64,000 nucleotides of DNA from Siphonodentalium dalli (lineage: Eukaryota; Mollusca; Scaphopoda; Gadilida; Siphonodentaliidae): the NCBI GenBank assembly GCA_032622095.1, contig CP136068.1, forward strand, positions 9,963,729 through 10,027,728, read 5' to 3'. The notes beneath the pieces were generated by a model. That model saw nothing but the letters and a program-made list of their open reading frames with translations. It was not told the DNA's origin and did no database searches. Within the stretch, counting starts at the first letter, position 1; the number at the start of each line of letters is the position of its first letter. This document shows, in pieces, positions 4,301 through 62,476 of the stretch. A program made the translations under genes and the position numbers.

Positions 4301-7300
4301 CTTTCACATTCCGGATTGCATACAGGATACGGGGAGCAAACCTTCCTGATCAAACACACAAACAACTTTGCGATAAATCACAAACATCTTGGGGATTGCA
4401 AAAAACATCTTTACGATTAATCGCAACCTGAACATATTCAAAATAAACATATACAAATATTCAAACGAACAGAATTTCAATAGTCAAGACATTTAGAGTT
4501 CCCTCTCCTACCACATTGAGCAATGTGTCAGGAAGACTGACCGGTATATTATTGATCCGATTTGTGGTTCTCTCAGACTTTTCGTTATGGCCATCATACA
4601 AATCGCGTAAATATTATCCAATTGTCAAGTTCGTACCTGAGTTATGTAAACAAAGCCAAATTATGTCACATAACCTGTACGTAAATAGTGTGTGGTAAGC
4701 CAAATACTCAAAACCTGGAAGACCCCACTAATGAAATTTTGTTAAAAGTGACACTATGTTAGCGCTCACTCATCCTCGGACAATTTACGGCTCGCTGAAC
4801 ATAACAAGCGGGATAACTCTCATTTTGAGATTGTCCGAAATTATCATCACGGTTTGTTCTAAAAATAGTGTCCAAAACATGTCCCAATTGATATTCGCAT
4901 AATAATAGGGTAATAACGTACTACGTTTTTCGAAAACTTACTTATTCCAAGCCGAAAATGACATATGTTCAACTACATGGAGTGGCACACACATTAATTT
5001 GTACATATACATGTCTTCAAAATCAAAACATCTATTGAGTATAGGAATTGTAATGATCATGCTGATGCTGTTGATGATGATGATGATAATGATAGTAATG
5101 ATGAATATTATGATGATGATATTTTAACTGTGACTATTTATTATATAGAGGATCTGAATCAGTAAACCACCTGTACCTTAAATATCGGTATGTAGTGGAG
5201 CAACCAAGCCTAGAATTATAAAAACAACCACTAAATTATTTTCAACAATAATCAATTAGGATTGTATCAAATACATTAACTATATTGGTTTCATCTCGTG
5301 TTGCAAATCGATATGATTGTATAACTAAACTTCAAGACTGAGTGTGTTGAAGTGTGGGGGGTTGCCGTTTATGATGTTTTGTGCTTTTATTCAAAACAGT
5401 TTAGCTTATGAACGAAAAGGGCAATATGCGTTCTTACATAAATATAAATCTTACCTAAACAAAAGGTTTTCATCCATGACTGCACACCTCCGAGTCTCTA
5501 ATCTGAGGAACATCAGCCCACATATTCACATACTGCATACTTGATGTCTTGCAATGTGGTGTGACTAATTATTGCCCGAGCAAGCCTGGATATTTCCGGG
5601 CAAGCCCAGGCAGGCCCGGGCGGCCACATGGGCACATGGGCAGTATAATATGGTGTCTTATGGTAGTAGGATACTCACAAAGGTTGTGAAAATGACTTGT
5701 TGTGTCATCCGCCGGTGTGTATATTAACCCTCTAAATTCCTACTGACTAAAAGAACCCGGGAGATCCCGGGCATACACATAGACCAGATCACAATGGCGT
5801 ACTTACCATGTTCGTGGGTTAAGCGTGTTGACTGTCCTGGAGCCCTAAAATCCAGACATACTAGCGATAATGTATTGAAGTCCGTGTTGACCTACTTTTG
5901 CCCAATTTCAACTGTTTGGGGTGGTTTTCCATCAACAGAGGTCATACTGTCTACTACTATCCTTCAAATATTGTGGAGAGACATCTCTGTATAATGTCCC
6001 GAAACCTCGATGTAAAAATGACAATTTATATGAAATTACGACACATATGTAGGGACTCGTGCTGAACTCGTGCTCAAGAAATCCGGCTGCGTGGAGTCAC
6101 ATTTTAATTACGACTGATGTGGTGACCACAATGACATACTTACCATGTTCGTGGTTTATGCAATGGTTACACATGTTATTGGGCCAGAGTAGGCATGTAA
6201 TTATGGCCCTCTCAGTTCATTTTCAGAGTTCTGCTCATTTCCGTTCAAAAACATGGCTAGAAGTTTTGGGCAAAATTACATCCTGCATCATTTAAAATGG
6301 AATTGTCATGCCCGATAAGGTACAGGGACAATCAGAATAGAACATTTAGTTGCCAGTTGATTAAGTGGCATATTTAATAACAAAGTGAGTCACCATTTGC
6401 TACATTTACAGAAGAGTAGATAATAATGTTCGGGATATATGTGAAAATATCAACTTATCTATCATATTGTGTGGACATTTTGCAAGCCAACTTGAGTATT
6501 TTTTTCTAAAAACATCTCAATGTCATGCATTTAAGATAGATCAAATCAATAAATACCAAAGATAGTTCCAAATATTCCAAGCCTGATAAGTGAGAATTTT
6601 GAGAGAACATTCCAATATTTTGGTAATGTAATCGTAGCACTTAACCAAGGTGCATCATAAATGTTATTATTCAATGTATTTACGACAAAATATCCAATTT
6701 TATGCATCAACCACAACTTTTACAAACGATTTTATGGCACACTGGGACCATATTTACCATTTTCCATATTTTGACAGCCAATTTTAGCCAAAGTGACAAT
6801 TTTTATTCCATTGGTTTAATATAGTCACAAGTAATGGTATGCATCACTTACATTCGATTTTTTAAGGATTTGAAATGATGGAACCCCAAGAATGACATAT
6901 TTCATTGCTACAATGATAAGTTAACATGAACATCAGAAAATAAAGTCAGATTGTCAACCAGTTCAAAGCTGAAACTGATTTAGAATATATTAGTGAAAAA
7001 TGTCAAATTTTCCACCTACGGCTGCCATTTTGAGGGCCATCTTGGACGGTTGCTCCAATTTTGGCCTAAACATGCATCATTATCTCTCGCAGAGTCATAT
7101 TTAATGTAAATGCCTAATTTTGTATTGCATATTTCATGGTAAAAATAATTGCGACATTTAGTAAATTATATAATTATGAAACGCTCTTTAAATTCGGAAA
7201 ATCCATTAAAAGAGGGGTTAAAGTGAAATTTCAGCGTGGTTCCATACCTAATATCAATTAGTATGTTAATATGTACATATGTTCAAAAATTCATACTTTA

Positions 7301-10030
7301 GTCATTAAGTGAACAATTTTGTTACTAATCTATTCCACTATTTAGCCAATATCGGAATTTAAAGGGTTAATAAAACCGGCGGTGGATGACACAGCAAATA
7401 AACGTCCACATTCTATACATGTACTTAGTATGTACCCCACTACCATAATGCATCCACGGGCCCATTGGCTGCCCGGGCTTGCCCGGGATATCTTGTGTTA
7501 TTATTGTGCATATCGTCATTTAATGGGTTAATGAAGCAGGCCATGAACGAGATGGCGAGTCAATCTTCACATTATACCTTTAGTAAGTGCCTCGCTGCCA
7601 TTAGACATCAATATATAGTCTGATCGGGTCACTGTGTGTCAGGACTCTCCCGGGTTCTTTTAGTCAATATCGGCATTTAAAGTGTTAATAAACCCGCCGG
7701 TCAATTTTCATAATATATGCGTATTTTGTATCCTACTACCATAAGCCATCATATTACACTATCTGCGGGCACATGGATATGTTTAGATTTCGAAGACATG
7801 TATATATACTGTCTGTGAGTAAGCCCGGGCGGTAATTAGTCACACCTTTGCAATGCACTTGCCCAGCGGCTGTAGATAATTTTCTTATCATCCAGGAAGA
7901 TAACTAGACGGCTGCTATCCGTTTGAAATGAGGACACACCAACGCGTCGTTGATGCAAACAATTGCACCTTTCTATGGCGGTTCCAAAACATATTGGAAG
8001 TGGCTTTCCATTGATATGTGTTATATAATTTCAGAGCAGCAGGAGCAAACAACAGAGATCACAACGACCACAACGATGTCCCATACCACATCAGGTATGA
8101 TAACATAATTATGATCATATCGTTGCCAATTAAAACATACAATTGTCACAACCAACTAGTTATATAAACACCAAAAAAGACGACCTTGACAATAAATGCA
8201 GGCATATATATGTGGATAGACATACATAATCACATGGACTTGTAATGACTTAATAACGAGTATTGAATTCATAAATACAATTTACAATCCACATACATAT
8301 ACATACGTTATATCCATCTGTCTTATACACGAATGGTCACGTACGCGTAATAATAAACTTGACATGATATATTGTCTGTGGTTACAACCAATAACACAAT
8401 CATATAGTCATAGGGCTTCTATGATAGGTCAACCTAGCCTATTATCTAACACAGTGAATGGGATATGACTGTTGAACGATGACGTAACAAATATGAATAC
8501 ACAGTATCAAAAGTAATGTTCATGTAATATATATATATCTCAAGCTATCTGTTTTACTGTCAAGTCATATGTGCCAGTTCTTCTGGATACGAACTACGAA
8601 CACTCGCTGGGATGAGTTATCTACTGAGGTTCGGGGATTCTGCTGTGATCGGTGATAACGCCCAGATGTGTTGCGAGGACGACGGAGCTCATCTCATAAC
8701 CATTGAGAGTCAGGTGATGCTGGATGATGTGGCTACACTGCTAACGACGCTAGGATACGGAAATGGTTAGTATTATACACATACACTAGCGGTGATGACG
8801 ATAATGATAACTGTATATACGGCACACTATAACGATAATTGCAACACTGATAATATGGCAATAACATGTTTTGAAGTGCATCAGAGTTGATTATCGCCCC
8901 ACCAGTAATGATTAATAACCGACATATTGTTACTGGCCCGATCCGTGGTGGCCATTAATCATATGAAGGACTGTTATCATAACATTCGGGGCGTAATGAA
9001 GCCATAGTGACCGACATGACCATATCACTACTGGTATTACTACACGCTACTATCAACCAAATTGGAAACCAGACGATGATACGATTACAAATGTGTCACT
9101 GACGTAGTAAAATGTTATTGACGTTATAACAACCAAGCAACAACTTAAACAATCGGCCATCAACTTGGAATGTCAGTTGTATGGGTACTCAGTTTGATTT
9201 TCAGTACTATATTTGTTTTCTAATTAAAAAGTTGCTGCACCGAAGTATTTTTACGACACCAAGGTGACGGTGGTGGAAAGTTATTGGAAAACAATATTTT
9301 ATTACCGGCCCTCCACTTTAGAGGGTCTTGACCATCGAACTAGTAAAAGTGTTTTATAAGAAAGAAACGCCATGTATAGTGGGGATACTAATGATTATGG
9401 TGATCATCAGGACACCGACGATAATAGTGACTATTTTTATAATAAGAACGCAGACGTATAACACAAATGACGCCAACGATAAAACACAACAATATGATAT
9501 CACCGTAATGTAGAAAGTTAAATTTACTGCCGGAAGATGTGAATATGTTAAATTTAATAACAGCGTTTGACTGTTTGTTTGTTTGTTTGTTGACTACTCT
9601 GCTGTACACTTTACCAAGTGTTGCAGGGCGGTTACTATTCAACATTACACTGTTGTCTTCCCATTGAAAATACATGATACCACTGTATTAATTAATTGTC
9701 TTCCCATTGAAAATACATGATACCACTGTATTAAGTAATTGGTTCCTGTCACCACAGAAGGTCGAATTACAAATTCACCATAAGCTAGTATACTGCAAAC
9801 GCGTGTAATTAGATGTTATTGTTCCAATTGCAGCTGCTATGTGGATCGACGGGAGATATGTTATTGGGGACGACACATGGTTATCGTGGAGTGGTACCGT
9901 CCTCCCATTCATCGCGTGGGGTAGTGGTCAACCCAATGGTGGTTCACAGGACTGTGTGTACATGATGAATTCCAAGTTCCAAGATGCATATTGTGCAGTC
10001 AACGCTCGCGTGTTCATGTGTCAGAAGTGA
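1047..10030 (+). CDS. secreted PAN-like/EGF-like/C-type lectin protein, five exons
   Basis: Five exons (1047-1352, 1546-1636, 8035-8094, 8565-8765, 9834-10030) join in one frame to 855 nt, 284 residues plus stop; intron phases are 0,1,1,1. Residues 1-23 are a signal-peptide-like hydrophobic segment ending AAAS. C55, C59, C65 and C77 form a PAN/apple-like cluster. C106-C128 is an EGF-like half with NGG and four cysteines. A Thr-rich linker covers about 133-152. A C-type lectin domain covers 153-284, with GAHL after a CC pair and a C-terminal F-x-C-Q-K. The sugar-site position reads QPN (252-254), between the EPN and QPD classes, so specificity is not predicted. Known role of the family: Ca2+-dependent carbohydrate binding outside the cell, often in innate immunity. 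The first intron uses a GC donor. Splice sites are read by eye, but frame and domain continuity across all junctions is strong support. Confidence 0.82.
1546..1636 (+). CDS. lectin gene exon 2 (EGF-like)
   Basis: Follows a TTTTCCAG acceptor and ends before GTACAT. It encodes FCLNGG, then C-T-C, then GLTG-x-x-C, a typical C-terminal half of an EGF module. It keeps four of the six usual cysteines, so either it is a half module or the first cysteines come from exon 1. It ends in phase 1. Confidence 0.78.
2668..2722. repeat. 17-bp perfect inverted repeat (hairpin) in intron 2
   Basis: Arms 2668-2684 and 2706-2722 are exact reverse complements (CAGGGCGAATATACTGT) with a 21-base loop. A partial copy of the right arm occurs near 2158. 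Possibly the remnant of a small TIR element. Confidence 0.85.
2726..2905. repeat. degenerate tandem repeat, about 60-bp unit
   Basis: Repeated GGTACTCTGGAGT-like cores at about 2728, 2775 and 2848, with intervening CCAGGTACT and TATCTAG variants, indicate an old diverged minisatellite of roughly three units. Confidence 0.55.
3406..4440. repeat. satellite-like block of quasi-palindromic TTTGCGATTTATCGCAAA units
   Basis: About 12 units spaced about 23 bp apart lie at 3487-3740, about nine at 3885-4070 and three at 4365-4430. Each is a variant of a near-palindrome (TTTGCGATTTATCGCAAA, or the GATAAATC form). The flanks are also duplicated: a segment with GAATGTCTGAAATA-TCGGCCAAATTT is at 3406 and 4157, and one with CCACCTATCGAT is at 3830 and 4250. 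The whole block therefore arose by repeated segmental duplication inside intron 2. Confidence 0.85.
4441..5548. other. intron 2 sequence, nothing recognised apart from a microsatellite
   Basis: No coding signal. An imperfect GAT/GATGAT-type trinucleotide microsatellite lies at 5059-5121. A 66-codon open frame near 5344 has no recognisable domain. Confidence 0.45.
5549..7853. mobile_element. element with imperfect terminal inverted repeats, about 2.3 kb
   Basis: The left end (5549-5580) and the reverse complement of the right end (7823-7853) share TTGCAA-GGTGTGACTAATTA-GCCCG. A second inverted block (5706-5770, with CCGCCGG and AAAAGAACCCGGGAGA) recurs inverted at 7654-7710 and partly at 7350-7400, so the right side carries two copies. 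GC-rich CCCGGGC tracts stand out from the AT-rich surroundings. A 40-base segment around ACTTACCATGTTCGTGG is duplicated directly at 5803 and 6137. No transposase frame was found, so it is probably non-autonomous. Target-site duplications are not clear. Confidence 0.6.
8035..8094 (+). CDS. lectin gene exon 3 (Thr-rich linker)
   Basis: A 60-nt exon between an AATTTCAG acceptor and a GTATGA donor. It enters and leaves in phase 1 and encodes a Gln/Glu/Thr-rich spacer (E-Q-Q-E-Q-T-T-E-I then five Thr). A short low-complexity, probably O-glycosylated hinge between the EGF-like and lectin domains fits. Confidence 0.72.
8565..8765 (+). CDS. lectin gene exon 4 (C-type lectin domain, first half)
   Basis: The acceptor is ACTGTCAAG before 8565; the phase-1 codon completes to Val and reads V-I-C-A-S-S-S-G-Y. 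It contains the first domain cysteine (C155), a Y-L-L-R-F segment in place of the usual S-Y-Y-F, then CC-E-D-D-G-A-H-L-I-T-I-E-S, the hallmark of a C-type lectin alpha-2 region. The donor is G|GTTAGT at 8766. Other acceptors nearby give stops in frame. Confidence 0.82.
8766..9833. other. intron 4 with a 43-bp tandem duplication
   Basis: No exon recognised. A 43-bp unit containing TTGTCTTCCCATTGAAAATA is repeated head to tail at 9653-9695 and 9696-9738, and a short (TTTG)n tract lies near 9572. The duplication is almost identical between copies, so it is recent. Confidence 0.7.
9834..10030 (+). CDS. lectin gene exon 5 (C-type lectin domain, second half, stop)
   Basis: Follows CCAATTGCAG. It encodes A-A-M-W-I-D-G, W-L-S-W-S-G, F-I-A-W-G-S-G-Q-P-N-G-G-S-Q-D-C and finishes with V-F-M-C-Q-K and TGA. 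These correspond to the WIGL-type strand, the long-loop region and the final disulphide cysteines of a C-type lectin domain. Confidence 0.85.
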
Positions 10031-17921: not shown

Positions 17922-18166
17922 GCCAAATTGTCAACCCACATATTGGTGATCATATTCTGCTGCATTTATATGCTTGCTATTTGAGACACGGTGCAATACT
18001 TAACTGTATTATATACTTGCCCATGAATTATAAGGTTTTAGCAGTGAGATATAAGTGATTTCCCACTAGTGATATATCGATATCTCACTGGTGTTATTCC
18101 GCCGTATGGATCCTCATGTGTGTTGTCGGGTTATACTTCATAGTGAATGATTTCCTGCACACATCA

Positions 18167-18355
18167 TGTACTGACATTCATTGGGGCCATCGGCAAGTAA
18201 CGGAAGTTTATAATAAATACAAAATCTATACTTTTTGAGTGGTTTAAATATGGGACTATTATTTTGGGCGTAATGTGTCAGCTTGAAATTTCTTATGTAT
18301 TGACATTCATTGGGGGCCATAGGCAGGTAATTGAAGTATATAATAAACATAATAA
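18167..18355. repeat. 130-bp tandem repeat, about 1.5 copies
   Basis: TGTAxTGACATTCATTGGGG followed by GCCAT-GGCA-GTAA begins at 18167 and again at 18297, immediately outside the left end of the 5.1-kb TIR element. Confidence 0.7.
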
Positions 18356-18375
18356 CCTCACCTTTTCAGTGGATA

Positions 18376-18480
18376 TGGGTTAAATCTCATTCGTGATGAC
18401 AAAACATTTGAATTTCCACTCGTGGCTAAAGCCACTCGTGGAAATTCAATGTTTTGTCATCACTCATGAGATATAACCCA
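18376..18480. mobile_element. 105-bp foldback inserted in the left TIR
   Basis: Arms of about 50 bases (TGGGTTAAATCTCATTCGTG... and ...CACTCATGAGATATAACCCA) meet at a short centre around GGCTAAAGCC. The right TIR of the host element lacks it, so it inserted after the host element. Confidence 0.8.
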
Positions 18481-18482
18481 TT

Positions 18483-18541
18483 AGTCTAGTGGATCTGGCC
18501 AAATAAACCACCGGACCGTAAACAAATTGCAATACAAAAGT
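18483..18541. repeat. left TIR segment of the 5.1-kb element
   Basis: Reverse complement of 23338-23398 with mismatches; the best-kept part is CCGTAAACAAATTGCAATAC. Confidence 0.75.
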
Positions 18542-19023
18542 TTCTTTCGTTATAAGATGTGTATAGGTGTCACCAACAGTATCATAGAATGACCCATTGA
18601 TAGGAGTGGTGGATATGCCTCATTTTTGCAGGGGGGGGGTGAACAAATTTCTTCCGGCACGTATGCCGGGGTGGGTGGGTGGTCAAAGCCACCAACAAGC
18701 AATGTTTTCCGCAACTAAAACAAAAATTCCTGCTTGTTTTGTTAGTGTTTTGGCAATGAGTTGGGCTTCAAAACCACTTTGAATCAGTTTGAATGAGAGA
18801 AATAATGTAATTCTAACTGGTAAACTGACTGCAGGCAGTTATCGTGTTGTATTTTGTTGCAAATTTTGAAATCCAAGATGGCCGCTGGCAGCCATGTTTT
18901 TTTGGCCCAATGACCTCAAAATGACTCATTCCTATTTACATCCATGATAAATAGTATGCACAGAAATTCATATACAGCTGTTTACAGTGAATTTCCCCCC
19001 GAAAATCTCTGTTTTAGTGTTAA

Positions 19024-19120
19024 AAGGGGGGGGTGGGTGTCAAAAAATGGTCGGAAAAATTGCCGAAAAGGAAAAAAATTGGCGGAAGGGGGTGGGGGGG
19101 GGGGGGTGGGGGTGGTGAGT
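19024..19120. repeat. G-rich tract
   Basis: Runs of 8 to 13 consecutive G separated by T or TGG on the + strand at 19024-19035 and 19084-19115, with a further G9 near 18632. The tract could form G-quadruplexes. It lies inside the 5.1-kb element, between its left TIR and its gene. Confidence 0.8.
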
Positions 19121-19993
19121 ACAACAAATGATCGAAAGGGAAAAAATGCCATTCGTGCCTGAAATGTTTTTCCGACCCATGATTTTTGGGGATAAAATGC
19201 CGTTTTTTGTATAAAACTGGTGATTTCTGGAATTCCATCATACTCGCTAAAATAAATAATATACATTTATTATCTACCATTCATGAGATGGGTATTTGGA
19301 TCCATTATGGAATGCATGTATGATACGTTCATTGTAGTTGCAAAAATCGTCAATTTTTGGGATAAAATTCCCATTTTCGACGAAAAACTGGTGAAATCTG
19401 GTATTCCAACACATAAATCATGAATACATCTTAACAATGAACATTAGCTCGTTGTAATATGTGCAACGGCATTCTAATAACATATGTTAATGACCCAGTC
19501 ATCTTGGGCGTTGGACAAGCCTAACATTTGAAAGTTTTAGAGAGCGTTTCGTGATTGTGATAATGGATATAATGGTCCAGTTCCATTCGTCATTGGAAAT
19601 TTGGCATTGTAATTAGTGTAGTACATTTGCAGTAGTGATACACTATGATATGTGAAAATACCCATATTCATATGTGTTTGAGTAATTGTCGTTTTTGATT
19701 ATTGTCAATTTAGAGAGCGTTTAGTGATTACACAAATATCGCGTCTGATGGGTTAATTCTTGGATATATGTTGCAGAACATATTTACAATGTTAAATAAG
19801 CATCAGGCGTTGTGTGGAAATGTTTATAAATGCTGTATATAATCGTATATGACATACATATGGTATGGTATCAATTTAATTCCAACGGATAAAATGGGCG
19901 TGGCAGATACCGAAAATAATCAGATCTGGATATAATTTTATACCAATTACTGTGCACATATTTCTTTTATGCATACAAAAATACATGACTGAT

Positions 19994-20965
19994 CTACACA
20001 TCTTCATTTACATTTGTGTCCTCTTTGTAATTGGAACACACAGTTTCCTGACAATTGCCACAGGCTACCGTGCACATCAGGCCATTACGTTTGCAACTGC
20101 ACCTTGTTGTAGTACAACCCGTCGTGCAAGTACATCTGATTACTTTCGAGAGGCATTCTGGTGCAGGTGGGAGGTATGTAGCCACGTGAACAAACTTACC
20201 ATCATCGATTGTCCAACCCCAGTTGATCTCGTTTTCGACAGTATTCCCGATTCAAGTCTGTATCTGATGGTATACTCGTTTGCTGTGGTGCTTTGTAGAT
20301 GAATCTGTGGGCGGTAGCGTTTCGGGTTTGACAAAGACTTTGGCCGATGCCACTTTGGATATTAACATTTTATGCCGTAAATATGTCAAAGTATCAGTAG
20401 GTTTTCCTCCGAAAATAGCGATCATGGCAGCTCGACCAAACTGCTCCACGCCTGTTGGTGATATCGTTTCCGTGAATCTGTGCCCGATTTCTTGCAGGTC
20501 CTTTTCATTTACCATCTTTTTGAAAACTTTCGGCTTGCCAATACCGAAAATCCGAGATGTCGTGTCGCAGCCTGTGTATGCATGCAGAAACAATAAATTG
20601 TGAGACAGCTGATCTCCCAAGATTTCTCGAATATGTCGAACGTTGTATAGAGGTGGGTTTTTATGCTTCCGGTCGCTCCTGAATAATAGACCAGGTCCAG
20701 TGGCATCAGATTTGTAGATCAGAAGGATTAAAAGATCTGCATCTTCACCAATCAATGTTATACATACAGTCTTCGCTGATTCAACCGCAGTGTTTGCGAT
20801 CTCGACATCTGCATCACCTTTGCACTGTATAACTCGACATCCGATATCTTCTAACTTCTTTACAATCAATTTCAGAATGTTAACTTTGTTATCGGTGTTC
20901 TGGAGGAATGCATCCTTCTTTCCATGGAATATCATGTCATCGTCAAAATGCACAGGTGTACTCTG
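19994..20965 (-). pseudogene. C-terminal part: FEN/XPG-like acidic motifs and CXC domain
   Basis: One frame interrupted only by a TGA at 20252-20254, where TGG is likely ancestral. Above the stop: K-G-D-A-D-V-E, then L-I-G-E-D-A-D-L-L, then L-H-A-Y-T-G-C-D-T-T-S-x-I-F-G-I-G-K. Below it: P-P-A-P-E-C-L and a tesmin/TSO1-like CXC pattern C-x-C-x3-C-x4-C-x-C-x6-C-x3-C-x2-C-x4-C, closed by TAG at 19994. CXC domains bind zinc and often DNA, so a DNA-binding tail on a nuclease-like core is inferred. Confidence 0.75.
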
Positions 20966-20975
20966 ATTTCTTTGT

Positions 20976-21620
20976 TCATCTTATATGGGTAACATCTTTG
21001 GTGTTAGGGTGCTCGTATACATCAAATACAATGATAGCCTTTCCATATATTGCATTAACAAACTTCGAGTATGTCAACGCTATGTCATTGTAGGAAATGC
21101 CTTTTGTCCATGGCAATCGCATTAGAAGAGAACCCCCGTCTAACACGTATTGTTCGGTTTTTGGGTTGAGATTGTCCGAGTCAGACGGAGTGCCACTTGA
21201 TGAAGATGTCTTTGCAACATGCTCCGAGATTGCCTTACACAGTGGTGGTTTGTCTGCGTTACGCAAGATATTGTATGATTCGAATAACGATGGTGGGAAT
21301 GCGCATAGCTCGTGATCTAGGGATTTTTCTAGATTCAGTTTCGTATTTGTAGCAAGGACGAAAAGTCTCTGAAACAGAAGCGCCGGGTCTATCTTAATTC
21401 CATCAGCAACCTTAACTCCAATCGAACTGGTCAGTGTGGTCGCCTTTTCCTTTCGTTTCAGAGAGAACTCATATACATTTTGTGCCTCTAATGTTCGAAC
21501 TACTGACTCTCCGTGGAGAAACAACCGATGAACATTAACACCAGGCAGGGCAGTGACACCTGAGACGATGTTTCGCAAAACCATGTCCTCGGTGAATGGA
21601 GAATGCTTCCTGATGAATTA
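20976..21620 (-). pseudogene. middle part of the broken nuclease/CXC-family gene
   Basis: Open frame of 202 codons beginning at a methionine (21584). The same frame continues upstream to an in-frame TAA at 21618-21620, beyond which family-like sequence resumes. It contains I-D-P-A-L-L-F-Q-R, E-L-C-A-F-P-P-S-L-F and Y-V-L-D-G-G-S-L-L, and ends just before a one-base frame change at about 20965. Confidence 0.7.
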
Positions 21621-21729
21621 TTGAACCGTATTACTGTCAGTTTGATCCCGATTCATTCTGGCTACGGATATGTCCTTATGCTGGTCACTTGTTTCGGATT
21701 TAACTCCGGTGAATGTTTGCATTGCGAAG

Positions 21730-22777
21730 TTATATTCCGAACAAACAGGCATTGAGGAAAGCCAAACAGCGCGATCTGACTCTGCAACAACCACTACCTC
21801 GCGTAAGGCCCCCGACGTATTTAACGGACCTCATCAGGACTTGCTCAATTATGAGATCGGGAGCCAGTCCAGCCCACTTTCTTGCCGAACGTTTAACAAC
21901 ATTACCGCGCTCTTTAAACTGGGCATTAATTGTCGCATGTGTGGATTCAAGTTTGTTGAGATTCTGAAGATACAGATATGCCGATTTTAAATAGTTCTGG
22001 TGACCGGCAGAAGCAAAGATTGGGAGAACTTGTCGCATGGCCTCCTTGTGCATATCAAAGTAGTCATGCAGTCGGTCTGCTCGAATCAGCTTTCTCAAAA
22101 CAGATATAATTTCCTGATATTCAAACCACAATTCACATTCACCTTGTTTCAGAAACGCGTCCACGTCCACGTCCACGTCCATCATGAACTTGTTGTATGC
22201 GATCATTCCAACATCTAAGTCACCCGATTTTATATTATCATACATGTCCGATAAATTCGATAGTGATTCCACCATGGGTCGTGCTGGACATCCAAGAATA
22301 TTTTCGAACAATAACATTTTTAACCCCGAAGAAACGATTGAATGTCCGCGCATAGCTCTGGTGTATGCTTTTCCGATAGCATATGAGTCACTGCATTTTC
22401 GGCATAAATAGTTTCTAAGATTTCCCTCAAGCCAGACCCGTATTAACGTCCATCAAATTTCCAATGGCACCGATCACATTCATAGCTGTGTGGAATGCGC
22501 CAAGCAACAGAAATAGATCACTGAGTTCCGGGTAATTGTTAATTACTTGACTTGCTTTCCAAAACAGTGGTTGATCAAATGTGATTATGGTAGGTATTTC
22601 ATACTTCTGAGCTAAATTATGCAGAAGCACGAGTGTGGATAAGATGCACGACCAATCACTGGGGCTCATATCTATAATAGGTAGAAACACCACGGAAGAG
22701 ACAACATTTGCGTCATTCGGACCTATTCCATGTATAGTTTGCATGCATCCGCTCCAATTTGGACGTGCATTGATCAC
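21730..22777 (-). pseudogene. N-terminal part of the broken nuclease/CXC-family gene
   Basis: 22777-22440 and 22353-21730 are two open stretches in different frames. The 60-90 bases between them read through the third frame with family-like sequence (I-L-E-T-I-Y-A-E-N-A-V-T-H-M-L-S). No ATG is present at the upper end; the first codon there is GTG preceded by TGA, so this is not a true start. Confidence 0.7.
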
Positions 22778-22933
22778 TCACCAATTGACTGAGTAGGGCT
22801 TACATGGGTGTTTTATATTGTAGAAATGCTATAAGTCGGTTCCATATCGACTAGTGTCCCTATTTATCAGTGGAGACAGCGCACCCTAAATAGTTACCTG
22901 AACGAATGAGTACATTTAGTGATGTATTGTGAT

Positions 22934-23280
22934 TATGAAACGCTCTTTATATCACATATAGTATCGCAAAAATGGGCATGCTAATGATGATTTAACATTG
23001 ACATAGTATGTCAGTTGGGCTTTAATCGTTTACAACACTAATTGTGCAATAGTAATGGAATTAGACATGATACCCAATATCATTATCACTAAACGCTCTC
23101 AAAATTACACAATATCGTTGAGTCGTCGCAAAAATTGGCATGATAACAGTGATTTAACAATCACACAGTGTATCAGCTGGGTATTAATCAATTACAGCAC
23201 CAAATTTGCGATTAGTATTGAAACTAGACACGATACTCAATATCGTTATCATCAAACGCTCTCTAAATCATAAAAACCCT
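22934..23280. repeat. subterminal tandem repeats, about 160-bp unit
   Basis: AAACGCTCT-T occurs at about 22937, 23093 and 23259. Each is followed by related sequence (TATCGCAAAAATGGGCATG or GTCGCAAAAATTGGCATG, then GATTTAACA and a GTATTAATC-like segment). This gives about 2.2 units inside the right TIR of the 5.1-kb element. Confidence 0.75.
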
Positions 23281-23337
23281 AAACATAAACATAGAGATGG
23301 GTAATTTTCAGATGTCATATGTAAGACCTATTGCTAT

Positions 23338-23424
23338 GCATTCCAGTAAAAATCATTTGTATTGCAATTTGTTTACGGTTCAACACCAGATCGACTAGAC
23401 TACATATCCACTGAAAAAGTGTGG
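23338..23424. repeat. right TIR of the 5.1-kb element
   Basis: Carries TTTGTATTGCAATTTGTTTA, the inverted counterpart of the left TIR, then CATATCCACTGAAAAAGTG. This copy lacks the foldback present on the left. Confidence 0.75.
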
Positions 23425-24149
23425 ATATCCTCTCTGTATTTTGCCTAAGACTATAATATTTAAGTGGTATCCACGTAAAATGAATTATGGGCGCTGCACA
23501 CGTAGTCCGTGTGTGTGAATAGCGTTTGCAGTCAATTAACTATCCGATATCGACACGTCTAGTTCCTTACTCTCACGTACAGTACATTGATAAATCATTA
23601 TTTATGGTCTCCATTCAAAGGTTGTATACATCATTCACTAATACGTGTGCTTCTTTGTAATCATATTATTGATCATTGTCCTTAAAAAAAATGAATTCAC
23701 AATTGATGTCGAAAAATTGTATTAATGAACATCCATTATACTTCTGATGCATTAACGAGCTTTAACAGAATCGAAGCTAAGTAACTACGTCAGATGTGTT
23801 TTCACATTCCATGATGCATCAACATATATCAATCAAAACAGTATTGCCCTAAGATAAATATCGCCCCATAAAACAAACACATAGCAAAAGGTAATAACAA
23901 TTGCGAAACAAAATTAAAATAAAAGGGATTATTAAACGGAAACCTTAAATAAAATAAAATTGATTGTTTTGACAATTTGAATTTGGTGTCCATTTTTCCG
24001 GCTGGTAACTTAGTAAAACTACATGTATTAGGTCTCACACATCGTTAAATCCAGAATTGAAGTATCGAATGAACACTTGTATAATACTGTATAGATGCAT
24101 TTAGATCAATCATAAACTTATATTAAATCGCTAAGCGATTTATATCAAT
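23425..24149. other. intergenic, nothing recognised
   Basis: AT-rich; no supported gene, repeat or RNA. Confidence 0.4.
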
Positions 24150-25085: not shown

Positions 25086-25536
25086 GTTCATATCCTCTAT
25101 GTATGTCCACATCTTAAAGTAGGCACAGTATAAAGTTAAAGGGACGTAACACACTCGCAGTGTTTTATGCGAACAGTATAATGGTCTGCAAAACAAGTAA
25201 CTCTAACAAGATATCAAATTTGTTATTATTTTCAATATTTATAATTCAATAGACGCTAATGTTTGAACTTAAGGCGTTTGTTTTATATGGACATAAGCGT
25301 ATGTTGTAAACATTAAAGACGTACATGCCAACTGATCATATTAATTTTGTATGCGTGCAACTAGATGCATTCATAGAGTTATCGAGCTTGCTAAGAGATA
25401 TAAATTATTGTATGAACTCTGATTGATCCAATCCAGTTTATGCACAACAGGAACGTTTGGTGACGTGACACATAAGCTGGCAGTGGGCAGTTTGAAGTGT
25501 GGCGTTTTAACCCTTTACCCAACAGAAGGGCCCTGT

Positions 25537-25605
25537 GCCAATGCATTCTCTTATATATGCGAGTCGACCATAGGTCGCCTCGCATATATAAGAGAATGCA
25601 TTGGC
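25537..25605. repeat. 69-bp palindrome module
   Basis: Arms GCCAATGCATTCTCTTATAT... and their complement meet around TCGACC-ATA-GGTCG. Each half ends outward with TATATAAG, a TATA-box-like octamer. Confidence 0.9.
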
Positions 25606-25684
25606 TTAACACATTAAAAATTATAAAATTGTTAAAGAATGTAAGAAAAAATGGTAAAAAGTGTTAAAAAAAGATTTTCTTTAG

Positions 25685-25753
25685 GCCAATGCATTCTCTT
25701 ATATATGCGAGGCGACCTATGGTCGACTCGCATATATAAGAGAATGCATTGGC
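25685..25753. repeat. 69-bp palindrome module, inverted orientation
   Basis: Reverse complement of the first palindrome at its asymmetric centre (GAGGCGACC rather than GAGTCGACC). Confidence 0.9.
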
Positions 25754-25906
25754 ACATGGCATAACTGTAACCATCACAATGTGGTCAAGGAGCCGGTTCC
25801 AATGATATCCATATTTGTATGGTTCTATTGAGACAGACCCAAGATAATTTAGGCTGTTGAAGCTTTATTTGGCCGGTTTTGGCCGGTTTGTTGGGTAAAG
25901 GGTTAA

Positions 25907-37930: not shown

Positions 37931-40900
37931 ATTAGGGATAAAGATAAATGGTGCAATTTATACGCACACTGGTGAGAAACCAAATATTGTTTGTGTTCAT
38001 TATTAATTATCTTTATTTTCTGGCTTTGGGCTCCCATGGTTTACCTGGATCACATTCTTATTTTCATATAAACAACATTGCATGCTATTTTACCATAATT
38101 ACAGTTGCTGCCTTTCTTTTCATATTACATTCATTTACTATAGATAATGGCTGAACTAATGACATTCAAGTTTGATGAGATAGAGAATCACAACAAATTT
38201 AATTTTAAGGAAACATATAAATTTAAAAATTGTCGAAAAACAGAGTTTGACGATAACCCAATTAATGGTTTACCAACAACTCACTACTATTCACCAGATG
38301 AATACCATAGAGTAACTAAAACAAAGAGCAATATATCCTTGTTTAACCTAAATTGTCAAAGTCTTAACGCTAATTGGGATTCATTCAATACACTTATGTT
38401 TGAACTTCAAAATAATACCGGAAAATTTGGACTGATAGGGCTCACTGAAATATTTAGAGCACCAGATAATATTGATTTTTCTATGGAAGGGTATCATCCA
38501 TTGATAAGGAAATGTAGGCCGGTAGAGGACGATTCGAGAGGAGGAGTTGGAATGTTTATAAGATCTGACGTAAACTATAAGGTTAGAGACGACTTATCAG
38601 TTTTTATCCCACATGTATTCGAATCTCTTTTTATTGAAATAATTGAACCAAATAGGAAATCCTATATAACTGGTATTATTTATAGACCTAATTCTCAACC
38701 AAAAGCAGATATAGACATATTTATTAAATCAATGAAAGAAATTATGAGTAGAATAAAATCTAAACACAAAACAAGTTTTTTAATGGGGGATTATAATATA
38801 GACCTCCTGAAATTTGGACAACATGTTAAAACAAATGAATTTATTGATGCAGTAATCACAGATGGTTTTATGCCTACTATTTTCAAACCCACACGTGTAA
38901 CATCGCATTCAGCAACCCTTATTGACCAGATACTCTCAAATGACCCAGTTAATGAATTTCATTCTGGAATAATAATAACAGATGTGAGTGACCACCTTGC
39001 AACATTTTATCGCCAAATTGATTCCTCCAAAATGCCAAAAGGTGGCTGTGAATCCATTTGGAATAGGATCTTTGATGAAGATAATATATCTTGTTTTAAG
39101 CGATTGCTATCATCTATAGACTTTGAAATAACTTTGCAATCATCATCCGTAGATGAATCATACCAATCATTCATGGATGTTTACACAAATGCTTATGACA
39201 TTGCCTTTCCGCTAAAAAAAACTAACAAAAAAATCCAAAAACAACAGCCATGGATGACCAAAGGCCTAATGCAGTCGTCAATAGAAAAAGGAAAATTATA
39301 TAGAAAACAATTGAGGTCTCCAACAGGCATCAATATAGAAAACTATAAAAACTACTGTCGATACTTTAATCGCGTCAAAAGATATATAAAAAAAGATTAT
39401 TATAATAGTAGGCTGCATATGTATAAAAGTGATATGAAGAAAACATGGGATATTTTGAGGGAAGTTATCCAGCATTCAAATAAAAAGATGCAGTACCCCC
39501 AAAGTTTTAACATTGATGGTAAACAAATACAGAACAGATATCAAATAGCAGAAGAATTTAACAATTTCTTCTCAACTATTGGATTGCGAGAAGCAGAACA
39601 TATTGACAAAAAAGTGGATCATGACTTTACACATTATCTTGATGAACCAACATCTAATAGTATGTTTATGAGACCAACAAACATAGAAGAATTGGACAAT
39701 ATTGTGAACAATATGAAAAATAAAACTAGTAAGGATAATTTGGGAATAACAACAAGTCTTCTTAAAGAAACTATAAGTGAAATATCTACACCTCTATGCC
39801 ATATAATAAATCTATCAATTGAAAAGGGTATTGTTCCAAGGGACATGAAAATAGCCAGAATCATACCACTATTCAAATCCAATAAAAAAACTCTAGTTGA
39901 AAATTATCGTCCAATTAGTATACTTCCAATATTTTCAAAGGTACTTGAGAAAGTGGTTTGCAGTCGTTTAACGGAATACTTTGATGATAAATTTTATATT
40001 CACCAATATGGGTTTCGTAAAGGTCGCTCCACTATACATCCTATAATTAAACGTTTAAATGATGTTGCTAGTAATAATGATAAGAAAACTAAGGATTGTA
40101 CATTAGCTACTTTTATTGATTTTTCAAAAGCTTTCGATACGATAAACCATAATATTCTCTTAACTAAACTCGAATACTACGGAATTAGGGGCAATGTTAA
40201 AAATTGGTTTAGAAGCTATTTAAAGGATAGGATGCAATATGTAGATATTGAAGGATCAGTCTCCTCAAAGAGGCGCAACACGATTGGGGTGCCTCAAGGT
40301 TCTGTACTGGGGCCAATACTTTTTCTAATATATGTCAATGATATGTACAAAAGTACAAAACTGTCTCTTTTGTCATTTGCAGATGACACAACAGTATATT
40401 CATCTCATCATGACATAAAATATCTTTTTTCCCATACCAATGCTCAATTAAATGGCTTAAATAACTGGTGTTAGGCAAATAAGCTATCACTAAACACCAA
40501 GAAAACCAAGTATATCATAATTCAACCAACAGGTGGTAAACATAATTCCAATAATCACCATCTTATAATAAATGGGAATCAAATAGAAAGAATCGGCAAT
40601 AATTATCGAGAAACTACATTCAAATTCCTTGGTATTCACATTGATGAACATTTAACATTTAAACACCATGTATCTGTTATCTCAACAAGAATATCTCGAG
40701 CACTATATGCCATTAATCGTGTAAAAAATATCCTTTCACAAAAAAGTATGCACATGTTATATCATTCTCTTATTCAAAGTCATATAATGTATGGTATTGA
40801 AATTAGGGGCAATGCTAAAACCATCAATAAACTGATCGTATTACAGAAAAAAGCTATCCGAACTATCCACAATGTAAGATACAATAGCCACACAGACCCG

Positions 40901-41670
40901 CTTTTTAAACTTAGTAAGATTCTAAAAATAAAGGACATATACAGAATTAAATGTTATCTATTCATGCATGATTGGTCAAATAATATTTTAGACACTTACA
41001 ACAAATATAATAATCCAACATAGATTACTAGACAAACTGGAAATATTCACGAAACTAGGGCTAGAACCACATTTACTGAAAACCTACCGCTACATATCTT
41101 CCCAAAACAATGGAAAGAAGTTGACATAAATTTACAATCCCTTATGCCACGTACTAACTTTAAACGCCAGGTTACACTAGAATTAATTGAATCTTACCTT
41201 GAAAAAGTTGAATGTAAAAACTTATATTGTCATGACTGCTATCCAGGCGTCATGTCATGAGGTAGTAATATCATATAACATATCACTGACAAATTATAGG
41301 AAACTGATTTAGATATTTAGATACTTGTTCTGTCTCATCATCATCATTAATTCATCATTAAGTTTCATTCAATAATTTTCATTAAATGAAAAAACAGCAA
41401 TAATTATTATCCAATGATATTGCAGTAGCATTATTATTATTTTGTTGATAAAAGTTGCAATGTCAATAAGCATAAGTCTAATTTGAAAGTATGACCACTG
41501 ACCAGGGGAGCTCAGAGCCAGAAAGGAAGTTTTTCCAGGGAGATGGTAGGAAGACGACCAGAAGGTCATGCCACCTCCCAGTAATGTATTATCACTATTT
41601 TTTGTTTGTTATTTTTTACCATTGTTATGTTGATATTTACATTACTAATAAACACTTGAACTTGAATTGA
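37931..41670 (+). mobile_element. near-complete LINE (APE-type non-LTR retrotransposon)
   Basis: A short 5' leader is followed by a 3.1-kb ORF2 (38147-41260), a roughly 0.4-kb 3' UTR with AATAAA near 41648, and an end of repeated ACTTGA-type units with no long poly(A). It sits between blocks of the same minisatellite. A separate ORF1 was not found; only about 210 bases of non-minisatellite sequence precede ORF2, so the copy is probably 5'-truncated or of a type lacking ORF1. RT order and the simple-sequence tail fit the CR1/Jockey-like group, but the exact clade needs a tree. Confidence 0.85.
38147..41260 (+). pseudogene. LINE ORF2: AP-endonuclease and reverse transcriptase, two in-frame TAG stops
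   Basis: One frame of 1,038 codons from ATG 38147 to TGA 41258-41260, broken only by TAG at codon 776 (40472-40474) and codon 959 (41021-41023). Endonuclease motifs: L-N-C-Q-S-L (68-73), G-L-T-E-I-F, G-D-Y-N-I-D-L and S-D-H-L-A-T. Reverse transcriptase: N-Y-R-P-I-S-I-L-P, Q-Y-G-F-R-K-G-R-S-T, F-I-D-F-S-K-A-F-D-T, G-V-P-Q-G-S-V-L-G-P and catalytic F-A-D-D (744-747). The region after the first stop still reads like the usual thumb and C-terminal domain (A-N-K-L-S-L-N, F-L-G-I-H-I-D). There is no RNase H domain. Role in the family: the protein nicks target DNA and copies its own RNA at the nick. With the TAGs, this copy would give a shortened protein. Confidence 0.9.
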
Positions 41671-43850: not shown

Positions 43851-44249
43851 TTAACCCTTTAACCAACAGAACGGCCCTGTGCCAATGCATTCTCTTATAT
43901 ATGCGAGTCGACCATAGGTCGCCTCGCATATATAAGAGAATGCATTGGCTTAACACATTAAAAATTATAAAATTGTTAAAGAATGTAAGAAAAAATGCTA
44001 AAAAGTGTTAAAAAAAGATTTTTTTAGGCCAATGCATTCTCTTATATATGCGAGGCGACCTATGGTCGACTCGCATATATAAGAGAATGCATTGGCACAG
44101 GGTATAACTGTAACCATCACAATGTGGTCAATGAGCCGGTTCCAATGATATCCATATTTGTATGGTTCTATGGAGACAGACCGAAGATATTTTAGGCTGT
44201 TGAGGCTTTATTTGGCCGGTTTTGACCGGTTTGTTGGGTAAAGGGTTAA
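43851..44249. mobile_element. TTAA-flanked piggyBac-like MITE, copy B
   Basis: TTAA at both ends (43851-43854, 44246-44249), the same TIRs as copy A, and two palindromes at 43881-43949 and 44028-44096. It differs from copies A and C by scattered substitutions and one or two single-base gaps. Confidence 0.88.
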
Positions 44250-45290: not shown

Positions 45291-45665
45291 CAAATTATAA
45301 TGTACAGCAGTAAATTATATTTAATGTACTCTGCATGCTATATAACAACAATAGTCGGTTGGTGGCGAGCTATAATTTATGCAATATATGTTATAGATGA
45401 GGTTTCAACTAACATGGACCAATGAGCCATCAAATCTCGTCAGCAGGATTTACTTTCCAAAACATTAGATCGGAAGGTTAACCTATGCGCGTGGTATCGA
45501 AAACCGTTGTGCATCGTTTCAACCATTTTTGAGTAACCGTTCATTTCGAGCTTCAACCCTCGAGTTGATTATGACGGGATTTCGTCGGTGTCCCACTTCC
45601 ACGCGTAACGATGGGCATGTGAATATCGAGACGGATGTTTTTGCTCTACAATATGGGTGGCAGTT

Positions 45666-46065
45666 TTAACCCTTTACCCAACAGAAGGGCCCTGTGCCAA
45701 TGCATTCTCTTATATATGCGAGTCGACCATAGGTCGCCTCGCATATATAAGAGAATGCATTGGCTTAACACATTAAAAATTATAAAATTGTTAAAGAATG
45801 TAAGAAAAAATGGTAAAAAGTGTTAAAAAAAGATTTTGTTTAGGCCAATGCATTCTCTTATATATGCGAGGCGACCTATGGTCGACTCGCATATATAAGA
45901 GAATGCATTGGCACAGGGCATAACTGTAACTATCACAATGTGGTCAAGGAGCCGGTTCCAATGATATCCATATTTGTATGGTTTTATTGAGACAGACCCA
46001 AGATAATTTAGGCTGTTGAAGCTTTATTTGGCCGGTTTTGGCCGGTTTGTTGGGTAAAGGGTTAA
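45666..46065. mobile_element. TTAA-flanked piggyBac-like MITE, copy C
   Basis: TTAA at 45666-45669 and 46062-46065; palindromes at 45696-45764 and 45844-45912. Closest to copy A. It abuts the left edge of the 1.08-kb tandem duplication. Confidence 0.88.
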
Positions 46066-46067
46066 TC

Positions 46068-47144
46068 CAGGTCAACAGACGACTGTGTGGAGTTCCATTG
46101 AACAAGAAAATATATTTGAGTCGGAGGAATATTATTCATTTAATCAGCCCATATACAAACAAATTCAATTAAACACTGGAGTTTTGACGATCCTACAATA
46201 GAACCATTATATATCTACACAGTGAAATCGGAAAATATTTGAATTATATTTCATAAAGATTACACTTCGCGTCCGGTAATCGAGTTCACGGATCTCCAGT
46301 GTGGGAATGTCCTATTCATAAGGTATTGATTTTATCGATATGGGACAAAGTAATCTTTGACCAAGTGATTATCCGGCGTTCAACACAAACTTCCGTTGCG
46401 CGGATGAACACGTCATTTAAATATTTATGACTTTTAGCTTGACCTCATTTGTTCAGACATTGGAACTATAAATACTGGAAGTTCCCCCAATTCGAATCTC
46501 CCACGGTCATATGTTATGTTTGAAAGATGTCTTTTTGGACACGATAGCTACTCAAGTTATGAAAATAGTAAATACATATTGTACATTTACATTCGTCTAA
46601 CTAATGTTGACAGTCTAATTACATCAAGCTCAAGTCGATAACTCCGTGTGCATGTGAACAAAATAGTTCGACATGTGGCGGCGTTAAGAGGGTCAACATA
46701 AGCGTGTTGTCATCGGTGACGTAACTCATGCTGTGACGTTACCACTTTTATTTTCATTACCGACACTGTTGCTCATCTGTTCCGCGAAAATCATTCCTGA
46801 CCCGTTTTATGTTCCACTTCGATTTTGATCATGTTCCCCTTCGATTATGATTTTTTAATGTTTTTGGAAGATGAAAAGGCTGTAAAACGGCATGTATATG
46901 TGAGGTTTTCAACGTGTATTTTGGTCACTGTGAGGGTGATAAATAGATACAGCTCGTGTCGCATTCTTATTTCCGTTAAAATAGGATTTCAACTAATTCA
47001 TGTGTTAATATAATTGAAATATGTTGAGTTGACTTCTTGCGAACCAGCCTACATATCGTTATGGAATCATGAGATTTATAATAACTGGTACCATTAGTTA
47101 TAGATGCAGCAAATCAATACGATCCTATTACCGTGTTTTTATCC
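46068..47144. repeat. 1.08-kb tandem duplication, copy 1
   Basis: Starts CCAGGTCAACAGACGACTGT and is nearly identical to 47145-48209 throughout, with scattered substitutions. No gene recognised in either unit. Confidence 0.9.
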
Positions 47145-48209
47145 AGGTCAACAGACGACTGTGTGGAGTTCCATTGAACAAGAAAATATATTTGAGTCGG
47201 AGGAATATTATTCATTTAATCAGCCCATATACAAACAAATTCAATTAAACACTGGAGTTTTGACGATCCTAAAATAGAACCATTATATATCTACACAGTG
47301 AAATCGGAAAATATTTGAATTATATTTCATAAAGATTACACTTCGCGTCCGGTAATCGAGTTCACGGATCTCCAGTGTGGGAATGTCCTATTCATAAGTT
47401 ATTGATTTTATCGATATGGGACAAAGTAATCTTTGACCAAGTGATTATCCGGCGTTCAACACAAACTTCAGTTGCGCGGATGAACACGTCATTTAAATAT
47501 TTATGACTTTTAGCTTGACCTCATTTGTTCAGACATTGGAACTATAAATACTGGAAGTTCCCCCAATTCGAATCTCCCACGGTCATAAGTTATGGTTGAA
47601 AGATGTCTTTTTGGACACGATAGAAACTCAAGTTGTGAAAATAGTAAATAAATATTGTACATTTACATTCGTCTAACTAATTTTGACAGTCTAATGACAT
47701 CAAGCTCAAGTCGATAACTCCTTGTGCATGTGAACAAAATAGTTCGACATGTGGCGGCGTTATGAGGGTCAACATAAGCGTGTTGTCATCGGTGACGTAA
47801 CTCATGCTGTGACGTTACCACTTTTATTTTCATTACCGACACTGTTGCTCATCTGTTCCGCGAAAATCATTCCTGACCCGTTTTATGTTCCACTTCGATT
47901 TTGATCATGTTCCCCTTCGATTATGATTTGTTAATGTTTTTGGAAGATGAAAAGGCTGTAAAACGGCATATATGTGAGGGTTTCAACGTGTATTTTGGTC
48001 ATTGTGAGGGTGATAAATAGATACAGCTCGTGTCGCACTCTTATTTCCGTTAAAATAGGATTTCAACTAATTCATGTGTTAATATAATTGAAATATGTTG
48101 AGTTGACTTCTTGCGAACCAGCCTACATATCGTCATGGCATCTTGAGATTTATAATAACTGGTACCATTAGTTATACATGCAGCAAATCAATGCGATCCT
48201 ATAATCGTT
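47145..48209. repeat. 1.08-kb tandem duplication, copy 2
   Basis: Head-to-tail partner of 46068-47144. Copy 2 lacks the MITE at its left edge, so copy C most likely landed beside copy 1 after or during the duplication. A 62-base part (GTTGCTCATCTGTTCCGCGA and following) recurs inverted at 49948-50010. Confidence 0.9.
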
Positions 48210-51103: not shown

Positions 51104-52095
51104 TCACGTACATTTTCCATCCTTAAGTGTTTGCCAAATGTCTTCTGCGAGTAATGCGTCGACCTCTCTCCCGAAGATTTTCGCTTCTCTTACGAAATCA
51201 CATCTATGTGGACTATTCGCGGGATCATGCATACCGGACGATACGCTCACGTGCTTCGGGCGTATGGCCGACGGAAGCAGTCCTGTAATGTACACATCCT
51301 CCATCGGAAATATACTGTAATATCCAGCCACAGTATGGATGTATTTTGCTAACCCACTGGGAATCTCATACATATTTCCCTGACAGTACGGAGGATACAT
51401 TGTATATGGGTAATCAGAATACGCCACTCCATACTTCGGGTGATACCTCCGTGTAAATGAATAGTAATAACAGAACCCGTATATAGTATTGTCGTCGAGA
51501 ACAGAAAGCTCCTTGAACAACAACGGCAAATGAATGAATGTGTCATCATCGACCTTCAGCACTCGTCTCGCATTTGGGCACTCGTCTTTCATCCACGTCA
51601 GACCTAAAAGAACTTTTAAAGTTAAATTATAATAACTCTCAACGTAGTCCTGCTGTAGAATATCCCCGTATTCCCTAGCCTCGTCCAGCAATATATGAGA
51701 CATGTCATCCTCATCAGTGCGACCAAACATGAACACTATTTTTATCATTTCAATTCCATGTCTTGACATCCCTGGCCATGAACCTTCTCTTGCCACACTG
51801 CCCCATGTCGTGCGGATGCCGTTTCGTTTTCGTTGGTGAGAGGGAATTGATGTAATGAGAACAAGTGAGAAGGGACGAGCCTCCTTCTCGCACACGATCT
51901 TCGGTTTTATTAGGTAACCATGGTTTAGTCGTGTAACCCTAGTAACGCCAATAGTATAGCTGTTATCTGGTGGACGAAGTTCAACGGTATAACACATCAC
52001 AATGAACAGAACTGAAGCAGCAATCGCAACCAGCTTGTGTCGTACTCGAATTTGTTTTGGTTGCCACCTGGCAACGAATCTCAACCAACGCCTTC
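51104..52095 (-). CDS. beta-1,3-galactosyltransferase-like glycosyltransferase (GT31), main exon
   Basis: The family transfers galactose or N-acetylglucosamine from UDP-sugar to glycan acceptors in the Golgi. Counting from the TTG at 52084, 326 residues show a short basic N-terminus, a single membrane segment at about 18-35 (type II topology), N-G-I-R-T-T-W (88-94), E-Y-G-D-I-L-Q-Q-D-Y (138-147), S-Y-Y-N-L-T-L-K (150-157), the metal-binding DxD as V-D-D-D (178-181), Y-P-P-Y-C-Q-G (230-236) and M-E-D-V-Y-I-T-G (261-268). These are in family order, and the length is usual. No ATG lies at the 5' end. The frame runs up to a TTTACAG acceptor at 52096-52102, so this is the last coding exon, entered in phase 1. 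N-L-T at 153-155 is a possible N-glycosylation site. Subtype and acceptor cannot be told. Confidence 0.88.
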
Positions 52096-52338
52096 CTGTA
52101 AATAAAGAATACTGTGTTGTTTAAATATTGTCGAGATCGAAACGAGAACTGCGCGAAACGGACGCACTATACATTTATATTTTTTTGGCATTACGCATCC
52201 TAGCACAACTGGTATGTCTGCCGGTTGTCCGCATCGATAACAGTGCTAATCTGTACATATTATTACACTCATCTGTTATCTGTAATATACATGTATGATG
52301 TTATATAATAAACAGTTAGCTAAATGGTGTGAGCGTAC

Positions 52339-59217: not shown

Positions 59218-59276
59218 CTAACCTATATATACATACCACATAAGGAATTTACTATGAGTAGTATTGTGAGTTGTTT

Positions 59277-62031: not shown

Positions 62032-62476
62032 TTAACCCTTTCAGTGCCAGGGGCCGATCTCATCAGCCCTAATTTACGGTCTGTAAATTTTTTTTAGATT
62101 TTTTTGGGTTGAATTTTGTTTGGGTATGCTTAAGCATGCTATAGCGATTTTAAAAACAAACTGGATAAAACCTTAGGGGCATGTTTTAACTCAAAACTAT
62201 CACCAAGTATTCATAGTAATAATTTTGATGCCCATGAAAAACGTAAGATTCCCTGGCACTAAACCTACAAAATAAGTCTGTTAAAAAATATAAGAACAAA
62301 TTATTAAAATTGTAAAAAATTGTTAAAAATAATAACAAATGATGAAACATTGTTAGGCCAATGCATTCTCTTATATATACGAGGCGACCTATTGTCGACT
62401 CGCATATATAAGAGAATGCATTGGCACAGGGTATATGGGTTGATACAAAAATCGGATCTGGCACTGAAAGGGTTAA
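62032..62476. mobile_element. TTAA-flanked piggyBac-like MITE of a second family, one 69-bp palindrome
   Basis: TTAA at 62032-62035 and 62473-62476; TIRs CCCTTTCAGTGCCAG and CTGGCACTGAAAGGG differ from copies A-C beyond CCCTTT. It carries one copy of the same palindrome (62357-62425) preceded by a related A-rich linker and followed by ACAGGGTATA as in copy B. Confidence 0.85.
62357..62425. repeat. 69-bp palindrome module in the second MITE family
   Basis: Same orientation as the second palindrome in copies A-C, with two substitutions that break perfect pairing. Confidence 0.88.

Follow-up and report, generated by a model that had tools for sequence, protein, structure and literature searches.

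A 64-kb stretch of the genome of the scaphopod mollusc Siphonodentalium dalli (contig CP136068.1, positions 9,963,729 to 10,027,728; hereafter the window) contains an element of 5.07 kb bounded by terminal inverted repeats (TIRs), which carries a single broken gene on the minus strand. With a probability of roughly two in three, this element represents an old, dead copy of a TIR transposon whose protein combined a DDE-type region, a FEN/XPG nuclease module and a cysteine cluster. It is most like AcademX, an assignment drawn only from architecture and size, with AcademX itself known here by description; the AcademX nuclease is presumably of the XPG type.

The nuclease module and the broken gene

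A preliminary description of this DNA had proposed a FEN/XPG-like nuclease with its acidic motifs in family order, and this proposal is borne out by the comparisons with EXO1 given below. The motifs D-A-D-V-E, E-D-A-D-L-L and T-G-C-D-T-T-S occur in sequence, with VLDGG and IVFDVY ahead of them, and together these are taken here to constitute the FEN/XPG metal-ligand set. The acidic residues are accompanied by a GIG helix-hairpin-helix turn, with VLDGG, IVFD, GDAD, GEDAD and GCD-GIGK following one another as in the FEN/XPG/RAD2 enzymes. When the 241 amino acid (aa) core (P0001), read through one frame change, was compared to the PDB using phmmer, human EXO1 accounted for the best four of the seven sequences returned (E 0.00096 to 0.012), with the reversed core yielding three unrelated matches (best E 0.87) as a control. 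The EXO1 fragment that formed the top phmmer match, and which belongs to the family already claimed in the preliminary description, was used for Smith-Waterman alignment. The core scored 118 against a shuffle mean of 29.8 (standard deviation 4.6; z 19.3), and none of 2000 shuffles was as good. Against the same fragment, with 2000 shuffles each, a 305-aa reading reached z 17.2 and the second half by itself z 9.5, compared with 0.0 in the N-terminal region and -0.2 in the reversed core. GDAD is placed opposite EAD of EXO1 in the HMMER alignment and two residues off in the Smith-Waterman alignment, with VLDGG falling outside both. At the level of sequence, these comparisons show the core to be homologous to the FEN/XPG family, as a family relationship.

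The single minus-strand gene placed between the TIRs by the preliminary description is present, but is larger than its nuclease part, with approximately 550 aa of the same broken reading preceding the nuclease core. The gene has suffered four frame changes and two stops, and its coding pieces are separated by gaps of a few bases at most or overlap slightly. As the pieces are nearly contiguous, their arrangement points to the decay of one intronless gene encoding one polypeptide, and away from introns or separate genes. No coding sequence was recognised by eye upstream of position 22777 in three-frame translation, and the gene start and N-terminus thus appear to be lost or unrecognisable. The left 1.6 kb of the element (18355-19996) is likewise free of any part of the reading. 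The whole protein is beyond the coding ability of this copy.

Within the region ahead of the nuclease, the D of IIDMS, the D of TFDQPL and the E of LIIEQVL could form a candidate DDE core. Proteins of this type are presumably multicopy in many invertebrates, with the three motifs conserved among such unnamed invertebrate proteins. The last coding piece incorporates nine cysteines with the spacing C-1-C-3-C-4-C-1-C-6-C-3-C-2-C-4-C, which is taken here to resemble the Tesmin/TSO1 CXC consensus. The CXC tail of the preliminary description therefore stands as a nine-cysteine cluster, but not as a domain recognised by database comparison, since the 85-aa cysteine piece has no match in Pfam up to E 5, and thus none to the CXC (TCR) profile, nor any in the PDB.

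Terminal and subterminal repeats

The matching TIRs and the inward-facing subterminal repeats of the preliminary description were both recovered (Table 1), the former as complementary outer and inner blocks, with the left TIR split by a hairpin, and the latter through the orientation of the four best pattern sites. Within the inner block, two pairs of arms can be aligned, of 17 nucleotides (nt) at 18482-18498 / 23386-23402 (94 % complementary) and 32 nt at 18515-18546 / 23348-23379 (91 % complementary). The outer and inner blocks adjoin on the right and are 104 bp apart on the left. The region of the intervening hairpin (18372-18484) folds as DNA at -43.4 kcal/mol (z -14.5), and since these 104 bp form an almost perfect hairpin, a foldback sequence probably inserted into the left TIR at a later time. 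Scores of 37 and 57 were obtained for the outer and inner blocks, respectively. A score of at least 57 was reached by three of 1631 random window pairs (58.5, 150.5 and 155.5), the two highest being copies of a different repeat within the window. Inspection by eye of the right TIR end showed a small inverted repeat, TATCCAC...GTGGATA.

On the left flank, a direct repeat (18166-18242 / 18295-18372; spacing 129-130 bp) extends into the element, its second copy overlapping the outermost 21 bp of the left TIR. The right flank was considered as a continuation of this repeat unit and rejected, its score of 30 being matched by 154 of 600 random segments.

The trinucleotide ATA flanks both ends of the element as delimited in the preliminary description, one base out of register with the TIRs. 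With a deviation of at most one base from the TIR register allowed, it is the only exact duplication of 3-10 bp, and is not counted as beyond chance as a target-site duplication (TSD).

The subterminal pattern GAGAGCGTTTNGTGAT was derived from the element itself and scanned for across the 64 kb with up to three mismatches. Eight sites were found where 1.37 were expected, a number reached in none of 100 shuffles (maximum six). All four sites with no or one mismatch lie inside the element, two on the plus strand at the left and two on the minus strand at the right, the latter pair being carried by tandem 162-bp units. The four sites with three mismatches comprise a third minus-strand site at the right end, a right-end site with reversed orientation (22908), and a pair outside the element.

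Elsewhere in the window, a stretch at approximately 5555-7855 is bounded by long inverted repeats and contains a 41-bp subterminal-like segment (7154-7193) which it shares with the element (22912-22952; 83 % identity). This stretch is possibly a distantly related non-autonomous element.

Table 1. Features of the S. dalli element, with positions counted from the first base of the window
Feature	Position	Strand	Remarks
Whole TIR element	18355..23424	.	Ends as in the preliminary description; alignable TIR extent 18352-23428
Left TIR, outer block	18352..18377	+	26 nt, 88 % complementary to 23403-23428
Hairpin splitting the left TIR	18378..18481	.	104 bp, near-perfect; no counterpart between the adjoining right-TIR blocks
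Left TIR, inner block	18482..18546	+	Aligns to 23348-23402
Left subterminal repeat 1	19540..19555	+	GAGAGCGTTTNGTGAT, exact
Left subterminal repeat 2	19713..19728	+	GAGAGCGTTTNGTGAT, exact
Broken transposase-type gene	19997..22777	-	Seven consecutive pieces in three frames, ~930 aa
Nine-cysteine cluster (CXC-like)	20030..20134	-	In the last coding piece
FEN/XPG-like nuclease core (P0001)	20480..21203	-	VLDGG, IVFD, GDADVE, GEDADLL, GCDTTS-GIGK; similarity to EXO1
Middle part of reading	21733..22452	-	Candidate third catalytic residue, E of LIIEQVL (21846-21844)
N-terminal part of reading	22430..22777	-	Candidate catalytic D of IIDMS (22672-22670) and D of TFDQPL (22576-22574)
Right subterminal repeat 1	22932..22947	-	GAGAGCGTTTNGTGAT, 3 mismatches
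About two tandem copies of 162-bp subterminal unit	22964..23268	.	Tandem Repeats Finder: 1.9 copies, 79 % matches
Right subterminal repeat 2	23085..23100	-	GAGAGCGTTTNGTGAT, exact
Right subterminal repeat 3	23248..23263	-	GAGAGCGTTTNGTGAT, 1 mismatch
Right TIR, uninterrupted	23348..23428	-	Aligns to left blocks

Searches for relatives and the remainder of the window

Relatives of the gene were sought among viral, prokaryote and phage sequences, and none was recovered with the queries used. Pattern searches with the nuclease open reading frame (ORF) returned three stretches among viral contigs and 37 among genome contigs, and those with two N-terminal ORFs returned two and one among viral contigs, none of which was confirmed. 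Two N-terminal patterns found nothing in viral contigs, and no tblastn match to the nuclease ORF was observed in phages. A degenerate motif pattern matched no viral and two genome stretches. Both of the latter were rejected as chance matches, the matched stretches being unlike the element protein and the other tblastn matches short and scattered. The lowest tblastn E (0.001, in a database of the two pattern-matched loci only) belonged to the cysteine piece and fell in a different place within one of these loci (L001). XPG_I was not found in the one genome of that locus, with the control found in four of 14 genomes. Inside the window, tblastn of six ORFs gave self-matches and one chance match (E 0.70), and blastn of the element gave, besides its internal and left-flank repeats, only the 41-bp segment at 7154-7193. 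Comparison of the whole window to Rfam at gathering thresholds yielded nothing.

Other repeats and ORFs accompany the element in the window. A repeat of approximately 400 bp occurs in three copies of 97-99 % identity (25499-25906, 43851-44249 and 45657-46065) and one fragment (62281-62435). It is bounded by TTAACCCTTT / AAAGGGTTAA, carries inverted repeats internally and has the appearance of a TTAA-type miniature transposon that was active recently. A tandem duplication of 1073 bp (46062-47134 and 47138-48208; 97.5 % identity) and large diverged direct and inverted repeats (53085-54557 and 56860-59225; 74-91 % identity) are also present. A retrotransposon reading on the plus strand (38144-41023) incorporates endonuclease and reverse transcriptase domains within its first 776 aa and one in-frame stop at approximately 40474. 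Of the four other window ORFs compared to Pfam, just one resembles a host gene, a galactosyltransferase reading on the minus strand (51104-52120; Galactosyl_T, E 9.7e-37), which runs uninterrupted for 338 aa from stop to stop.

Interpretation and comparison with known transposons

A number of results weigh against the interpretation of the element as a dead AcademX-like transposon, several of which concern the proposed DDE-type region. The two D candidates are separated by only 31 residues, fewer than expected in a classical DDE core, so that the actual first D may have been situated further upstream, in the lost part of the gene. None of six gene pieces matched Pfam up to E 5, nor did the 937-aa reading up to E 10. 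For the 395-aa N-terminal reading, Pfam yielded a single match at chance level (TPR_6, E 1.1) and the PDB none; the two ORFs of this reading gave no PDB match and one unrelated PDB match (E 1.6), respectively. An AlphaFold model of the N-terminal piece, built without an alignment, consisted of helices only and was too poor to use (predicted local distance difference test, pLDDT, 46). The nuclease core, too, lacks a Pfam match up to E 10, XPG profiles included, and its AlphaFold model, likewise built without an alignment, was too poor to use (mean pLDDT 36); no FEN nuclease occurred among the 50 of 714 Foldseek matches listed for this model, which were judged uninformative. EXO1 was not returned in the filtered PDB search for either the unjoined nuclease ORF or the 305-aa reading. 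For the latter this is a filter effect, as with filters off the reading matches the EXO1 fragment at E 0.0029 and 0.0075. Finally, a convincing TSD, which spans 3-4 bp in AcademX, was not found at the ends of this copy. In addition, comparison of four proteins to NCBIfam gave a best E of 0.015 (15.9 bits, where the cut-off is 89.55; nuclease core E 0.11), and comparison of the nuclease core only to PHROGs gave E 0.19, none of which was credited.

The preliminary description went further in suggesting that the nuclease might be the mobility protein of transposons lacking an ordinary DDE transposase. In such a class, the FEN/XPG-like enzyme would itself cut branched or hairpinned ends and leave completion to host repair or replication. 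The nuclease is indeed the sole part with demonstrable homology, a DDE domain was recognised by no tool, and the TATCCAC...GTGGATA repeat at the right TIR end could form a branched structure. Against such a role, FEN/XPG enzymes hydrolyse DNA and are not known to catalyse its joining. The nuclease is, moreover, preceded in the same broken reading by about 550 aa with D/D/E candidates, making it one portion of a more extensive protein, and AcademX is already in print as a DDE-superfamily lineage with a nuclease (PMC10045372, PMC9587614; these and the further source below are cited from excerpts). The suggestion is consequently not upheld and is considered very unlikely. It is very unlikely, too, that the FEN/XPG (PIN-like) flap nuclease served as the primary end-cutter, with the upstream 550 aa responsible for DNA binding and assembly instead of DDE catalysis.

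The absence of an intact transposase and of any part of the reading in the left 1.6 kb would also fit a nuclease gene carried as cargo, or a composite with the nuclease inside the TIRs of a non-autonomous element and the transposase encoded elsewhere. This is rather unlikely, considering that the nuclease and the N-terminal region share one continuous broken reading, that subterminal repeats occur on both sides of the gene, and that the size is near that of published autonomous Academ elements (PMC10294476). A fused DDE and FEN/XPG transposon of another or unnamed superfamily is an unlikely alternative as well. Academ is known here by description and the only TSD candidate is ATA, but the nuclease-bearing DDE lineages described in the excerpts are AcademX and Kolobok D, E and P, the latter three with nucleases of other kinds, a weak argument given that the literature was searched mainly for Academ. 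An AcademX-type transposon is preferred because a nuclease-bearing Academ lineage is in print and the element is close in size to the Academ mean.

In an AcademX-like transposon, the DDE core would cut the TIRs and join the element to a new site, as expected from the superfamily, and trimming of 5' flaps or branched intermediates, whether at the ends of the element or at its target, might fall to the FEN/XPG module. The subterminal repeats may be bound by the cysteine cluster or by other parts of the protein. If this interpretation is correct, the element adds one more decayed copy to a lineage pairing a flap-type nuclease with a transposase, and raises the questions of why such a transposon carries its own flap nuclease and whether this nuclease sets the short TSD, as suggested for AcademX versus AcademH (PMC10045372). 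Should mobility depend on the nuclease instead, a new transposition chemistry would have to be considered.

Among known proteins, the host repair enzyme EXO1 (FEN/XPG/RAD2) resembles the element protein along EXO1 residues 60-250, with IVFD, EDxDLL and GCD...GIG in the same order. The VLDGG of the element is located beyond the aligned stretch, and EXO1 lies outside any TIR element. Added nucleases are also found in the DDE transposons KolobokE, KolobokD and KolobokP, like that proposed for the element protein, but these are of the PD-D/ExK, DEDDh and His-Me finger types rather than FEN/XPG (PMC9587614). The Academ superfamily is counted among those with a DDD/E transposase (PMC9587614), and two of its lineages carry an extra enzyme beside the transposase: a helicase in AcademH, which has TSDs of 9-10 bp, and a nuclease in AcademX, which has TSDs of 3-4 bp (PMC10045372). 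No helicase profile in Pfam matched the six pieces or the 937-aa reading. The element differs from AcademX in its decay, in the apparent loss of the first part of the gene and in lacking a convincing 3-4 bp TSD. It nevertheless shares with AcademX, as compared by description only, the TIRs and an encoded nuclease (PMC10045372), the latter recognised in the element by FEN/XPG homology, and its 5.07 kb is near the mean of 5565 bp for 100 curated bivalve Academ consensus elements, whose lineage is unstated in the source (PMC10294476).

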